Assembly (NCBI GenBank): GCA_015063305.1
Contig: SVUJ01000004.1
Location: 62,001 to 126,000 of the forward strand
DNA length: 64,000 nucleotides
Direction of reading: 5' to 3'
DNA from: Oscillospiraceae bacterium
Lineage (GTDB): Bacteria > Bacillota > Clostridia > Oscillospirales > CAG-272
Numbering within the stretch: the first letter of the stretch is position 1; each line of letters begins with the position of its first letter. Below, in pieces: positions 59,111 to 63,560 of the stretch. The notes below the pieces were generated by a model. That model was not told the DNA's origin. It saw only the letters and a list, made by a program, of their open reading frames with translations, and searched no databases. Position numbers and translations under genes: made by a program.

Positions 59111-59121
59111 AAGATAATATT

Positions 59122-59155
59122 ATCGGAGAGGGGCATACCTCTCCGATGTTTTTTT
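59122..59155 (+). terminator. Terminator of the YwaF-like gene
   Basis: ATCGGAGAGG pairs perfectly with CCTCTCCGAT around six bases and is followed by GTTTTTTT. Confidence 0.95.
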
Positions 59156-59226: not shown

Positions 59227-59255
59227 TTGACAATAATGGATAGATGTGGTATCAT
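59227..59255 (+). promoter_or_regulatory. Sigma-A promoter of the sugar-phosphate operon
   Basis: TTGACA, a 17-base spacer and TATCAT, 39 bases ahead of the FGGY kinase ATG; no further promoter is visible between the five genes. Confidence 0.85.
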
Positions 59256-59293
59256 AATAATGTATGAAAACTTGAAAAGGCGGAATTTGTGCA

Positions 59294-60718
59294 ATGGCAA
59301 ATTTGAAGAGATATCTTGGCATAGATATCGGTACAACATCACTTAAAGCCGCGGTCTTCGATGCCGAGGGGAATCGCCTCGGGCTCAGAGCGGTGGATTA
59401 TACTCTTGACACCGATCCCGACACCGGATTTATTGAGTTCAATGCCGATGAATACATAAACATTTGCCGCAGAGTTATAGACGAGCTTACCGCAGAATGC
59501 GGAAGCATCGATGCTATATCTGTGGATACTCAGGGCGAGACGCTTATCGTTACAGACGAGAACGGAAAGCCCCTCAGACCTGCTATAGTCTGGCTCGACA
59601 ACAGAGCGACCGAGGAGGCTGAGCAGATCAAGGCTCATTTCGGCTGCAAGAAGGTCTATGAGGTGACCGGTCAGCCCGAGATCACCGCGGGATGGCCCGC
59701 ATCCAAGCTCCTTTGGATAAAAAAGAACGAGCCCGACGTGTGGTCTGCAACAAAGAAGATATTCATGCTTGAGGACTGGGTGCTTTACAGCCTTTGCGGT
59801 AACTTCGTTACCGAGCCCACTATTCAGTCCTCCACTATCTACTATGATATCACCAAGGGCGAGTGGTGGGGCGAGATGCTCGACTTTATCGGTCTTGATG
59901 CCGACAAGCTGCCTAAGATAGAGGCAAGCGCTAAGGACGTTGGAAGCTACGGTGCGGCGCGTGTCGTTACCGGAGCGCTCGACCAGATAGCGGGAACTAT
60001 CGGCGCGGGAGTTACCGATAAGTCAAAGATCAGCGAGATGACGGGAACTATAATGGCTATATGCGTTATGAGTGACACGATACCGCCATATAATCCCGAC
60101 AGTATAATTCCTTGCCACGTTCACGCTATAGACGGTAAGTACTGCCTTATTCTGTGGTCGTCCACCGCGGGAATGGCGCTCAAGTGGTTCAAGAATACCT
60201 TTGCCGAGAATTATTCCTTCGCGGAGCTTGATAAGATAGCCGAGCAGGTCAGCGCGGGCTGCGACGGACTTACTATGCTTCCTTATTTCTGCGGCTCTAC
60301 TATGCCGAAATACAATCCCGATGCTACCGCGACCTTCTCGGGTATAAATCTCTCGCACACACGTGCTCACTTTGCAAGGTCGATAATGGAGGCTGTTGCC
60401 TTCACGCTCAAGCAGAACCTTGAGTACGTCGGTGATGATGCGGTCAAGGAGATAAGAATAACCGGCGGCGGAGCTTCAAGTAAGCTCTGGTCGCAGATAA
60501 AGTCTGACGTTACGGGCAAGACTCTCCGTACGGTCAGCGAGAGCGAAACTGCCTGCCTTGGAACGGCGATACTTGCCGCTGTTGGTGTGGGAGAATATGA
60601 GTCGGTATCTGCCGCTGCGGATGCTATAGTCAAGGGCAAGGCAGAATACAACCCCTCGGGAGCGTCCTACACCGAGGCATACGAAAAGTACTGTAAGCTG
60701 GATAAGCTTTTAAATTAA
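59294..60718 (+). CDS. FGGY carbohydrate kinase, xylulokinase-like
   Basis: A 474-residue sugar kinase. GIDIGTTSLKAAVFDAEGNRL at the N-terminus is the phosphate 1 motif; SVDTQGETLIVTDENG, WLDNRATEEAEQI, GALDQIAGTIGAG, and the C-terminal ITGGGASSKLWSQIKSDVTG form the rest of the FGGY fold. Xylulokinases and erythrulose kinases share this length and motifs. It is first in a five-gene operon whose partners handle phosphorylated short sugars, so a C4 to C6 ketose or polyol product is the likely substrate. The name xylB would be too specific. Confidence 0.88.
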   Translation: MANLKRYLGIDIGTTSLKAAVFDAEGNRLGLRAVDYTLDTDPDTGFIEFNADEYINICRRVIDELTAECGSIDAISVDTQGETLIVTDENGKPLRPAIVWLDNRATEEAEQIKAHFGCKKVYEVTGQPEITAGWPASKLLWIKKNEPDVWSATKKIFMLEDWVLYSLCGNFVTEPTIQSSTIYYDITKGEWWGEMLDFIGLDADKLPKIEASAKDVGSYGAARVVTGALDQIAGTIGAGVTDKSKISEMTGTIMAICVMSDTIPPYNPDSIIPCHVHAIDGKYCLILWSSTAGMALKWFKNTFAENYSFAELDKIAEQVSAGCDGLTMLPYFCGSTMPKYNPDATATFSGINLSHTRAHFARSIMEAVAFTLKQNLEYVGDDAVKEIRITGGGASSKLWSQIKSDVTGKTLRTVSESETACLGTAILAAVGVGEYESVSAAADAIVKGKAEYNPSGASYTEAYEKYCKLDKLLN

Positions 60719-60740
60719 ATCAAGAAAGGTAGTTTTTAAA

Positions 60741-61445
60741 ATGTACAAGAATTATAAGATACGCGCACCGTATTTCGAGATCGGCCCTAAGTGCTTCATG
60801 TGGGGCGAGAGAATGCTCAAGCTGGCAAAGGCTGTTGACAAGATCGCTTACAAGTACGATCTTGACGTAATAGTTACTCCCCAGTATGCTGACATCAGAT
60901 TGCTCGCTGAAAATACCGAGTACATACACGTTTACGCACAGCATATGGATCCCCTCGTTCCCGGAAGAGGACTTGGTTCGGTTCTTCCTGAATCCATCAA
61001 GGAAGCGGGAGCTGTTGGTGTAATGCTCAACCACGCTGAGAAGAAGCTCACACTTGAAACAGTTAAGGAAACCATCGCACGTGCTGACGAGGTCGGACTT
61101 GCTACTATAGTTTGCGCTGACACCGTTGAGGAGATCAGACAGATAGCTCTCCTTTCTCCCAACCTTATCGTTGCCGAGCCCACAGACCTCATAGGTACAG
61201 GCGTTGCAAGTGATATGGGATACGTAAGAGATACTATTGATGCAGTTGCTAAGATCAACCCCGACATCATGGTTCTTCAGGGCGCGGGAATTTCCGGTCC
61301 CGATGACGTTGCAAACGTTATCAGAGCAGGCGCTCTGGCAACAGGCTGCACCAGCGGCGTTATGAAGGCGGCAGATCCCGAGGCGGCTGCTGAGGAGATG
61401 CTTTGGACACTCAGAAAGACTTGGGACGAGGTAAACGGCAAATGA
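60741..61445 (+). CDS. Archaeal-type triose-phosphate isomerase paralogue
   Basis: A 234-residue TIM barrel. VTPQYADIRLLAEN, VYAQHMDPLVPGRGLGSVLPE, VMLNHAEKKLT and IVAEPTDLIGTG align with archaeal triose-phosphate isomerase; H98 and E146 fit the catalytic His and Glu. The N-terminal Asn-x-Lys of standard enzymes reads G15-P-K17, so the Lys is probably kept but the Asn is not. GAGISGPDDVANVIRAGA is the phosphate loop. Paralogues of this kind act on erythrulose phosphate or other sugar phosphates, so the substrate is probably not triose phosphate. Confidence 0.88.
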   Translation: MYKNYKIRAPYFEIGPKCFMWGERMLKLAKAVDKIAYKYDLDVIVTPQYADIRLLAENTEYIHVYAQHMDPLVPGRGLGSVLPESIKEAGAVGVMLNHAEKKLTLETVKETIARADEVGLATIVCADTVEEIRQIALLSPNLIVAEPTDLIGTGVASDMGYVRDTIDAVAKINPDIMVLQGAGISGPDDVANVIRAGALATGCTSGVMKAADPEAAAEEMLWTLRKTWDEVNGK

Positions 61446-62035
61446 ACGAGATAGTAAAGAACGCTTTCGACACCTTTACCATCGAGGCCGAGTCTTTGGC
61501 TGAGACCGCAAAGGTGCTTGATAAAAACGAATTCGCAAGAGCTGTTGAGGCACTTGCAAAGGCAGAGAGAATAGGCGCGTCCGCTTGCGGACATTCGGGT
61601 ATCGCTTGCCAGCACTTCGCACACCTTATGTGCTGCATCGAGCGTCCTGCTCGTTTCATCTCTCCTGCTGAGGCTGTTCACGGCGCGCTTGGATTTATCC
61701 AGAAGGGTGACGTTATCCTTCTTGCTTCCCGCGGCGGAAAAACAGACGAGCTTCTTCCTATCGCAGACATCTGCAGAGGAAAGGGTGCTACCGTTATAGG
61801 TGTTACAGAGAACGTAAATTCTCCCCTCGCGGAGAAGTCCGACATAGTTCTTGCTATGAAGGTCACAAGAGAGTGCGACAAGTATAACTGTCAGGGAACT
61901 ACCAGCTTTGCTGTTACCTCTGCTATATTTGATGCGCTTCAGACAGCTGTGCTTGATTACACAGGCTTTAAGAATGAAAAATTTGCAGTAATTCACCCCG
62001 GCGGAGCTGTGGGCAAAAGACTTAATGCAAAATAA
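61442..62035 (+). CDS. SIS domain sugar-phosphate isomerase-like protein
   Basis: A 197-residue SIS (sugar isomerase) protein like the KpsF/KdsD, GutQ and hexulose-phosphate isomerase group. GASACGHSGIACQHFAHLM and VILLASRGGKTDELLPIADI are the sugar-phosphate loops, and TSFAVTSAIFDALQTAVLDY with HPGGAVGKRL at the C-terminus is the signature of arabinose/hexulose phosphate isomerases. There is no CBS domain. The ATG overlaps the TIM-gene stop (ATGA), so they are translationally coupled. Confidence 0.85.
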   Translation: MNEIVKNAFDTFTIEAESLAETAKVLDKNEFARAVEALAKAERIGASACGHSGIACQHFAHLMCCIERPARFISPAEAVHGALGFIQKGDVILLASRGGKTDELLPIADICRGKGATVIGVTENVNSPLAEKSDIVLAMKVTRECDKYNCQGTTSFAVTSAIFDALQTAVLDYTGFKNEKFAVIHPGGAVGKRLNAK

Positions 62036-62066
62036 TAAAAATAATACACAAAGGAGAAAAACAAAA

Positions 62067-62687
62067 ATGGAAATGAAAGTTTATCAGAAGGAACTTGAGC
62101 TTCAGTCCAGAGGTTGGATTCCTACTTTCCATGACATCAGAAAAGAGATCCTCGAGATGGTTGAGGATTCCGGCATTAAGAACGGTACAGTAGCTATCGT
62201 TTCTCACCACACCACTTGCTCCGTAATGGTTCAGGAGTGCTCGCACGATATCGACAGCTTCGATCTCGAGTTCCTCCAGCACGACCTTCTCGACATCATG
62301 AGAAAGATGATCCCCGACTTCGCAGAGGAGCATCAGTACCGTCATCCCGGTCCGATCCACGCTCAGTACGGTAGATACGTAAACGAGCCCGGCGACTACT
62401 CCAGCATGAACACCGACGGTCACCTTCGTTCCTGCTTCTTCGGCAGAAGCGAAACCCTCACCATCAAGGACGGCAAGCTCGACCTTGGTCTGTTCGCACA
62501 CATCTACTTCATTGACTGGGACCACGTTATCGCTCGTCGCCGTCAGGTAAACGTTACCATTATCGGTACAGCTGAGGACATCAACGACAGAAAGTGGAAC
62601 GACGGTAAGGTTATCGACACCAGACATAAGTTCACTGAGGAAGAAAAGGCTTACGACATTCACTACGATCTCCAGCAGATGAGATAA
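62067..62687 (+). CDS. YjbQ family protein (UPF0047)
   Basis: A 206-residue YjbQ-type protein. VAIVSHHTTCSVMVQE at residues 42-57 and the later NTDGHLRSCFFGRSETL with LDLGLFAHIYFIDWD contain the three-histidine cluster of the family. Usual YjbQ proteins have about 135 residues; this one carries extra segments between the motifs (HRHPGPIHAQYGRY type sequence), as in a subgroup linked with sugar genes. The molecular role of YjbQ is not settled. AAAGGAGA precedes the ATG. Its place inside a sugar-phosphate operon is the most useful clue here. Confidence 0.82.
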   Translation: MEMKVYQKELELQSRGWIPTFHDIRKEILEMVEDSGIKNGTVAIVSHHTTCSVMVQECSHDIDSFDLEFLQHDLLDIMRKMIPDFAEEHQYRHPGPIHAQYGRYVNEPGDYSSMNTDGHLRSCFFGRSETLTIKDGKLDLGLFAHIYFIDWDHVIARRRQVNVTIIGTAEDINDRKWNDGKVIDTRHKFTEEEKAYDIHYDLQQMR

Positions 62688-62707
62688 TTTTTGGGGGCTT
62701 ATATTAA

Positions 62708-63400
62708 ATGAAACTTATTCTTGATACAGCAAATCTCGATGATATAAGATACTTTAACGAGTACTATCCTATTGCGGGAGTTACCACCAACCCTACCATC
62801 CTTGCAACAGAGGGTGGAGACGTTGTTGAGCTTCTCAAGAAGATAAGAGAGATCATCGGTCCCTTTAAGGAATTTCATGTTCAGCTCACAGAGACTAAGT
62901 TCGATGGAATGATTGCTGAGGCAGAGGCTATAGTAGGGTTGCTGGGAAAGAATACCTACATAAAGATCCCCGCTACTGACGAGGGAATAAAAGCCACAAA
63001 ATTCCTCTCATCTAAGGGATATCTCATCACTACAACAGCGGTACTCAGCTCATCTCAGGCTATGATCGCTTCTCTTGCGGGGGCTGCATACGTTGCGCCT
63101 TACGTAAGCCGTCTTGAAAATATATGCGAGGACGGTGTTGCCATAGTAGCCGATATTCAGGCTATCTTTGATGCGGCAAAAACCGATACACAGGTTCTCG
63201 CGGCAAGCTTCAAGACCGTTCGTCAAGTGCTCAGTGTTGCGCTGACGGGTGCGGGTGCGGCTACCGTATCGGCTGACGTTATGTACAAGCTTCTCGAGCA
63301 TCTTACAACAGACCGTTCTGTTGCTATGTTCGAGGAGGACTGGAAGAACGCATTCGGTGATGTAACTCTTGGAGAGCTTATCGCAAAGACATCTAAGTGA
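62708..63400 (+). CDS. Transaldolase/fructose-6-phosphate aldolase family protein
   Basis: A 230-residue aldolase of the FSA/TalC group. LILDTANLDDIRYFNEYYP, GVTTNPTI, TYIKIPATDEG with the Schiff-base lysine K86, TTAVLSSSQA, APYVSRLEN and the C-terminal swap helix EEDWKNAFG are all present. This group cleaves fructose 6-phosphate or related ketose phosphates, or transfers dihydroxyacetone units. As the last gene of the operon it would split the isomerised sugar phosphate. Overall reaction depends on the operon's substrate, which is not known. Confidence 0.92.
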   Translation: MKLILDTANLDDIRYFNEYYPIAGVTTNPTILATEGGDVVELLKKIREIIGPFKEFHVQLTETKFDGMIAEAEAIVGLLGKNTYIKIPATDEGIKATKFLSSKGYLITTTAVLSSSQAMIASLAGAAYVAPYVSRLENICEDGVAIVADIQAIFDAAKTDTQVLAASFKTVRQVLSVALTGAGAATVSADVMYKLLEHLTTDRSVAMFEEDWKNAFGDVTLGELIAKTSK

Positions 63401-63422
63401 TAAATCTGATTGTAATTGCATA

Positions 63423-63462
63423 GATAAAACACCCAAAAGCTTAGGCTTTTGGGTGTTTTATC
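63423..63462 (+). terminator. Terminator of the sugar-phosphate operon
   Basis: GATAAAACACCCAAAAGC pairs perfectly with its complement around TTAG, giving an 18-base-pair stem ending in TTTTATC. Confidence 0.93.
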
Positions 63463-63531
63463 TTTCTGAATAATTTATCGAATTATCATCAAGGTGAGTT
63501 TAAAATATTATATGTAAATCCTCGGTATTTA

Positions 63532-63560
63532 TTGACAAAGCCGCCGAAGAATGATAAAAT
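63532..63560 (+). promoter_or_regulatory. Sigma-A promoter of the DUF1934 gene
   Basis: TTGACA, a 17-base spacer and TAAAAT, 26 bases ahead of the ATG. Confidence 0.9.

Follow-up and report, generated by a model that had tools for sequence, protein, structure and literature searches.

What sugar route would call for a kinase, an altered triose-phosphate isomerase (TIM), a SIS-domain isomerase, an aldolase and a YjbQ protein, the last from a widespread family with solved structures and no agreed function? The question is raised by a five-gene operon in a 64,000-nucleotide stretch of the genome of an Oscillospiraceae bacterium (contig SVUJ01000004.1, positions 62,001 to 126,000 of the forward strand), the whole of which is hereafter called the window. 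We suggest that a ketose-forming sugar is broken down by a catabolic route split between two loci, that this operon encodes its phosphorylated half, and that YjbQ is required in it as a sugar-phosphate enzyme, a general scheme to which we assign a probability of roughly 0.58. Sugar catabolism by kinase, isomerase and aldolase is a known kind of pathway, which here has an unusual component. The open literature searched, a scope outside which most subscription journals fall, contained no account of the operon or of a sugar role for YjbQ. This result, and the conservation of the gene set, agree with the undescribed sugar- or polyol-type route proposed in the initial annotation of the window.

The operon and its recurrence in Clostridia

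The operon consists of five intact genes, tightly packed on the + strand between 59294 and 63400. These genes and the predicted control signals are as follows.

59294-60718, + strand: FGGY-family carbohydrate kinase, 474 amino acids (PF00370/PF02782)
60741-61445, + strand: archaeal-type TIM paralogue, 234 amino acids, with catalytic Lys17, His98 and Glu146 kept and Gly15
61442-62035, + strand: SIS-domain sugar-phosphate isomerase, 197 amino acids (PF01380), KpsF/GutQ-like without CBS domains
62067-62687, + strand: long-form YjbQ/UPF0047 protein, 206 amino acids (PF01894)
62708-63400, + strand: fructose-6-phosphate-aldolase (FSA)-type protein of the transaldolase (TAL)/FSA family, 230 amino acids (PF00923)
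59227-59255, + strand: predicted promoter-like site, TTGACA-17-TATCAT with TG ahead of the second hexamer, 11/12 consensus matches
~63422-63463, + strand: predicted terminator-like hairpin at the operon end, -29.5 kcal/mol, z -8.26
59121-59148: separate predicted terminator-like hairpin, isolating the gene upstream of the operon

The coordinates confirm the earlier picture of five packed genes between one promoter and one terminator, both of these being predicted signals. From kinase to FSA the intergenic gaps are 22, -4, 31 and 20 bases, the start ATG of the SIS gene overlapping the TIM stop by 4 bases. The YjbQ start was placed at 62067, where it is preceded by AAAGGAG, a motif lacking at the in-frame ATG at 62025. 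The next gene after the operon has a strong promoter-like site of its own (TTGACA-17-TAAAAT, 63532-63560).

All five proteins have a clear family match in Pfam, and the solved structure closest to the SIS protein is 3fxa. At the equivalog level of NCBIfam, however, the cut-offs were missed by the kinase (best model XylB, TIGR01312, 307.7 against 380.25 bits), the TIM (TIGR00419, 102.9 against 130.6), the SIS protein (KpsF/GutQ model TIGR00393, 114.9 against 203.7) and the FSA-type protein (TIGR00875, 201.8 against 245.95; related, not equivalog), and were passed only by YjbQ, narrowly (TIGR00149, 71.6 against 67.75). Therefore, the operon proteins appear to be divergent members of their families rather than housekeeping enzymes.

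The TIM paralogue was found in 49 of 196 genomes of the family, and a scan of named genome contigs returned at least 80 TIM loci, all those listed coming from uncultured Clostridia and many from rumen or gut samples. Linkage was counted at 40 of these loci, those flanked by 5 kb or more in each direction, with neighbouring genes called by a coding-score gene caller. Linked to the TIM were the kinase (33 loci), SIS (33), YjbQ (32), FSA (22) and a FucI/AraA-like isomerase (22); the linked genes were co-directional with the exception of one FSA, and all five families were linked at 11/40 loci. A DeoR-type regulator was linked at 19/40 loci, mostly in divergent orientation, and a ceramidase-like protein at 17/40. 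Since the set recurs in many Clostridia, the five-gene arrangement is not a matter of chance. The kinase carries the motif DTQ[G/C]ETLI in most relatives and its Asp230 is kept in 87/87 homologues; at one locus (L052:4820-6242) the kinase is split into two overlapping frames of 240 and 249 amino acids, likely through a frameshift or assembly error.

An ordinary xylulose or ribulose operon, in which xylulose 5-phosphate is the kinase product and the remaining genes are accessory or housekeeping, would be in keeping with XylB as the best kinase model, with a transketolase elsewhere in the genome and with the FSA as the sole TAL-family gene of the genome. Such an operon is nevertheless improbable, and by the kinase model it is not one, as the score falls below the xylulokinase cut-off. 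Furthermore, most loci keep TIM, SIS and YjbQ together with the kinase, and TIM and YjbQ also travel as a pair without it.

A matched pair of TIM and long-form YjbQ

The TIM-YjbQ pair is the core of the operon. Among 398 genomes of the phylum, the TIM (E <= 1e-30) was present in 12 and long-form YjbQ (at least 162 bits) in exactly those 12, adjacent in 12/12 (Fisher p 4e-23), and among the 196 family genomes 47 had both, 2 the TIM only, 6 YjbQ only and 141 neither (Fisher p 5e-36), p-values that ignore shared descent and hence overstate the association. The two TIM-only genomes are 59% and 67% complete. The genome-neighbourhood check proposed in the initial annotation has thereby been carried out, and the genes are conserved together across the 40 loci, the 12 phylum genomes and the 47 family genomes. 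A required step for YjbQ, raised earlier as a possibility, is on this conservation and near-absolute pairing very probable.

The module YjbQ shares family and fold with canonical YjbQ (UPF0047) and differs in length, 164-206 amino acids compared to about 140. A subfamily profile separates the two, with long forms scoring at least 162 bits and all other YjbQs at most 60. The predicted fold of the window protein matches nine solved YjbQ structures (Z 14.4-18.2); only YjbQ structures rose above noise in the search with this model, the next unrelated matches lying at Z ~4.6, and no functional hint came from it. His47, Cys51, Gln56 and Arg127 are invariant within YjbQ subfamily A2 and are specific to module YjbQs in a comparison with a single canonical sequence (L198), a contrast that is weak on the canonical side. 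In three clusters (L062, L065, L072) two YjbQ subtypes occur together, one of 206 amino acids beside SIS and one of 164 beside TIM, which suggests separate roles for SIS-paired and TIM-paired YjbQs.

The window TIM belongs to the archaeal type and not to the TpiA2/EryH type. The catalytic Lys, His and Glu are kept in every module TIM tested that covers those positions, and the residue two before the catalytic Lys is Gly in 114/114 window-type TIMs. The genome also encodes a canonical TIM with the triose-type Asn at this position (GNWKMN), and Ser is found there in the five RpiB-linked TIM paralogues compared. That the module TIM keeps its catalytic residues and lacks the triose-type Asn, as do the RpiB-linked TIMs, was counted in favour of the general scheme. 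Ten further TIMs with Asn are of a type found with phosphotransferase systems (PTS) and aldolases; a class II aldolase adjoins all of those checked for neighbours except L177. The two partners vary together, with TIM Gly15 accompanied by YjbQ Arg127 in 92/92 pairs and TIM Asn15 by Ser or Ala at 127 in 10/10. This is the pattern that would be expected of two enzymes handling one metabolite, and co-inheritance of two clades could also explain it.

These residues also bear on a three-carbon version of the route, in which the aldolase would cleave an L-configured sugar, with YjbQ acting before cleavage, and the TIM would form dihydroxyacetone phosphate from an unusual triose phosphate such as L-glyceraldehyde 3-phosphate. 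The PTS-type TIMs, with their triose Asn and adjoining aldolase, would suit such a role, and with a canonical TIM elsewhere in the genome the paralogue needs another reason to exist. However, every window-type TIM has lost the Asn and many loci have no aldolase, and we regard this version as unlikely.

The pair also occurs in distant hosts, Enterococcus, Lacticaseibacillus and Shinella, with other partners. In Shinella (Alphaproteobacteria) the locus reads short-chain dehydrogenase/reductase, TIM-barrel protein, TIM, YjbQ and FGGY kinase; on Enterococcus and Lacticaseibacillus plasmids the pair comes after a class II aldolase, and two of these three loci also have a GAT-type PTS; and in three further genomes it stands with an hxlB-like gene and a protein of 215-225 amino acids that reads as ribulose-phosphate 3-epimerase. 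YjbQ without TIM is found on the E. faecium plasmid pSU8419_2 (L217:5935-11773), in a cluster of GAT-type PTS, YjbQ, rpe and hxlB. YjbQ genes like that of pSU8419_2 were seen on 153 Enterococcus plasmid records.

Could YjbQ instead provide thiamin phosphate or another cofactor and leave the sugar of the route untouched? The family is annotated as secondary thiamine-phosphate synthase. No enzyme of the operon is expected to need thiamin diphosphate, however, and the near-absolute pairing with one isomerase, together with the matched subtypes, fits a shared metabolite better, so that we consider a cofactor role very improbable. We propose instead, at somewhat less than even odds, that long-form YjbQ is an unrecognised sugar-phosphate isomerase or epimerase working in series with an archaeal-type TIM reshaped for four- or five-carbon (C4 or C5) substrates, the two forming a mobile catabolic module on which PTS-, FGGY-kinase- and aldolase-ending pathways of both Firmicutes and Proteobacteria draw. 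If true, this would be the first physiological reaction for the YjbQ family. The link to an altered TIM, the matched residues and four kinds of neighbourhood narrow its role to phosphorylated small sugars, which can now be addressed directly with a short in vitro panel.

A proposed split route and its candidate substrates

The initial annotation had noted no transporter. This is true of the operon but not of the pathway, which appears to be split over two operons. The same genome encodes a single close homologue (66% identity, G000:C22:20389-21738) of the linked FucI/AraA-like isomerase, and it lies in the following operon.

L224:6577-10739 (G000:C22), - strand: three-gene operon of FucI/AraA-like isomerase, major facilitator superfamily (MFS) transporter and putative hydrolase

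The transporter is weakly like organophosphate antiporters, the putative hydrolase (494 amino acids) belongs to the ceramidase-like family with no Pfam family above cut-off, and the isomerase had no sequence match among solved structures. Relatives (e.g. L046/L123 and L121) place these isomerase, MFS and hydrolase families beside the kinase-TIM-SIS-YjbQ operon, a placement that points to a pathway divided between two loci, with the window operon as one half; the absence of a transporter from the operon would follow from this division.

Genes, conservation, co-occurrence, matched subtypes and residues are what was observed; from these we infer each reaction of the scheme below and the order of the steps. 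The host would be a fermentative gut or rumen Clostridium. Uptake by the MFS transporter and aldose-to-ketose conversion by the FucI/AraA-like isomerase, both from the second locus, would come first, followed by phosphorylation of the ketose by the FGGY kinase. The TIM paralogue, long-form YjbQ and SIS would then rearrange the ketose phosphate by moving the carbonyl, inverting a carbon or both, with YjbQ contributing a required isomerase or epimerase step. YjbQ probably acts before the TIM, because YjbQ occurs without TIM and TIM hardly ever without YjbQ. Lastly, the FSA-type aldolase would carry out a retro-aldol cleavage. The FSA diagnostic residues, for which aligned transaldolase entries served as part of the reference, are kept among homologues (Gln59 and Tyr132 each 49/50, phosphate-site Arg135 and Schiff-base Lys86 each 50/50). 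At the Gln and Tyr positions TAL has Glu and Phe. The aldolase should therefore cleave an omega-phosphorylated sugar and not act as a transaldolase. No Dak1 kinase was found in the genome, which disfavours a dihydroxyacetone outcome. If the scheme holds, the route would be common in rumen and gut Clostridia.

In a C5 version, SIS would form an aldose resembling arabinose 5-phosphate and FSA would split it into glycolaldehyde and glyceraldehyde 3-phosphate; TIM and YjbQ would act ahead of SIS and FSA, shifting the carbonyl or inverting a stereocentre. E. coli KdsD and FsaA are known to convert ribulose 5-phosphate in vitro to arabinose 5-phosphate and on to the same two products (PMC6900487, PMC6298115), and on this precedent the C5 version, itself tentative, is slightly favoured over the C4 version discussed below. 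The window operon resembles this KdsD/GutQ plus FSA route in having a KpsF/GutQ-like SIS and an FSA-type aldolase in one unit. However, the known route is engineered, neither CBS domains nor two of the KdsD catalytic residues are present in the window SIS, and the TIM and YjbQ have no counterpart there. AraBAD/FucIK-type systems likewise use an isomerase of the FucI/AraA kind and an FGGY kinase to feed in a ketose phosphate; here TIM, YjbQ, SIS and FSA replace AraD or FucA, and the isomerase is at another locus.

In the C4 version, the kinase product would become L-erythrulose 1-phosphate, which the TIM, in the role of LerI/EryH, would turn into D-erythrulose 4-phosphate. Brucella and M. smegmatis do equivalent chemistry with EryC, a TIM paralogue and RpiB (PMC5992420, PMC10733421), and the triose-type Asn is gone both from RpiB-linked ery-type TIMs and from the module TIM. 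In E. coli, moreover, a pdxB block in 4-phosphoerythronate metabolism is relieved by multicopy yjbQ (PMC7954711). The SIS, YjbQ and transaldolase members had previously been taken not to fit a tetrose scheme, an objection that the evidence does not support: the Shinella YjbQ occupies the position that RpiB has in ery loci, and on an E. gilvus plasmid (L221, rpiB-fsa-TIM-DhaMKL-transketolase) a TIM paralogue adjoins rpiB, a TAL-family gene and DhaKL. This plasmid cluster thus resembles the window operon in its TIM paralogue, sugar-phosphate isomerase, TAL/FSA-family gene and kinase, but has RpiB instead of SIS and YjbQ, a Dha kinase instead of an FGGY kinase, and a TAL-family protein that aligns with transaldolase-type residues, unlike the FSA-type Gln59 and Tyr132 of the window aldolase. 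Furthermore, the FucI/AraA-like isomerase, XylB-like kinase, KpsF-like SIS, rpe and hxlB belong to C5/C6 families, and identity between the module TIM and the RpiB-linked TIMs is only 15-20%, with 18-20% for the TIMs of ery loci. On balance, we consider the C4 version rather doubtful.

Erythritol and threitol catabolism as such (EryA-EryB-EryC-EryH/TpiA2-EryI/RpiB; LerI/DerI) is similar in combining an FGGY kinase and a TIM paralogue lacking the triose-type Asn with subsequent sugar-phosphate isomerases. An FGGY kinase and a TIM paralogue are present here, as noted earlier; the TIM is archaeal-type. The GlpD-like dehydrogenase EryB and the TIM-barrel protein EryC, both present in true ery loci, are neither in the operon nor among the recurrent linked families in relatives, and the operon has SIS, YjbQ and FSA and no RpiB. 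The erythritol pathway was rejected on these absences and on the type of the TIM.

Several points weigh against the split-route scheme. Of the KdsD catalytic positions, which we take to be Lys59, Glu111, Glu152 and His193, the last two are matched by Glu144 and His185 of the SIS protein and the first two are replaced by His and Lys; with two of four differing, arabinose-5-phosphate chemistry is uncertain. The C5 version also leaves the TIM with no textbook role. As the sole TAL_FSA gene in the genome, the FSA may be housekeeping, and given its absence from 18/40 relatives' loci it may be auxiliary. The pairing shows pathway coupling rather than catalysis, and YjbQ could be a mutarotase, a regulator or a repair enzyme. 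Weak thiamin-phosphate synthase activity has been reported for YjbQ (Morett 2008, as cited in PMC4731195), and its function is described as unknown in PMC7954711.

Genes adjoining the operon in relatives

At six loci (L043, L060, L061, L083, L090 and L096) genes for a NagA-like deacetylase and a NagB-like protein of 310-330 amino acids adjoin the operon, and some of these loci also carry ceramidase-like proteins and an FGGY kinase of a second subfamily. The NagA/NagB-like neighbours hint at amino-sugar-derived substrates in some lineages. At L033, L083, L090, L091 and L130 the operon is adjoined by genes resembling those of a 2-oxoacid dehydrogenase-type complex, comprising a lipoyl protein, a dihydrolipoamide dehydrogenase, a protein of 820-828 amino acids and often a lipoate-ligase-like gene.

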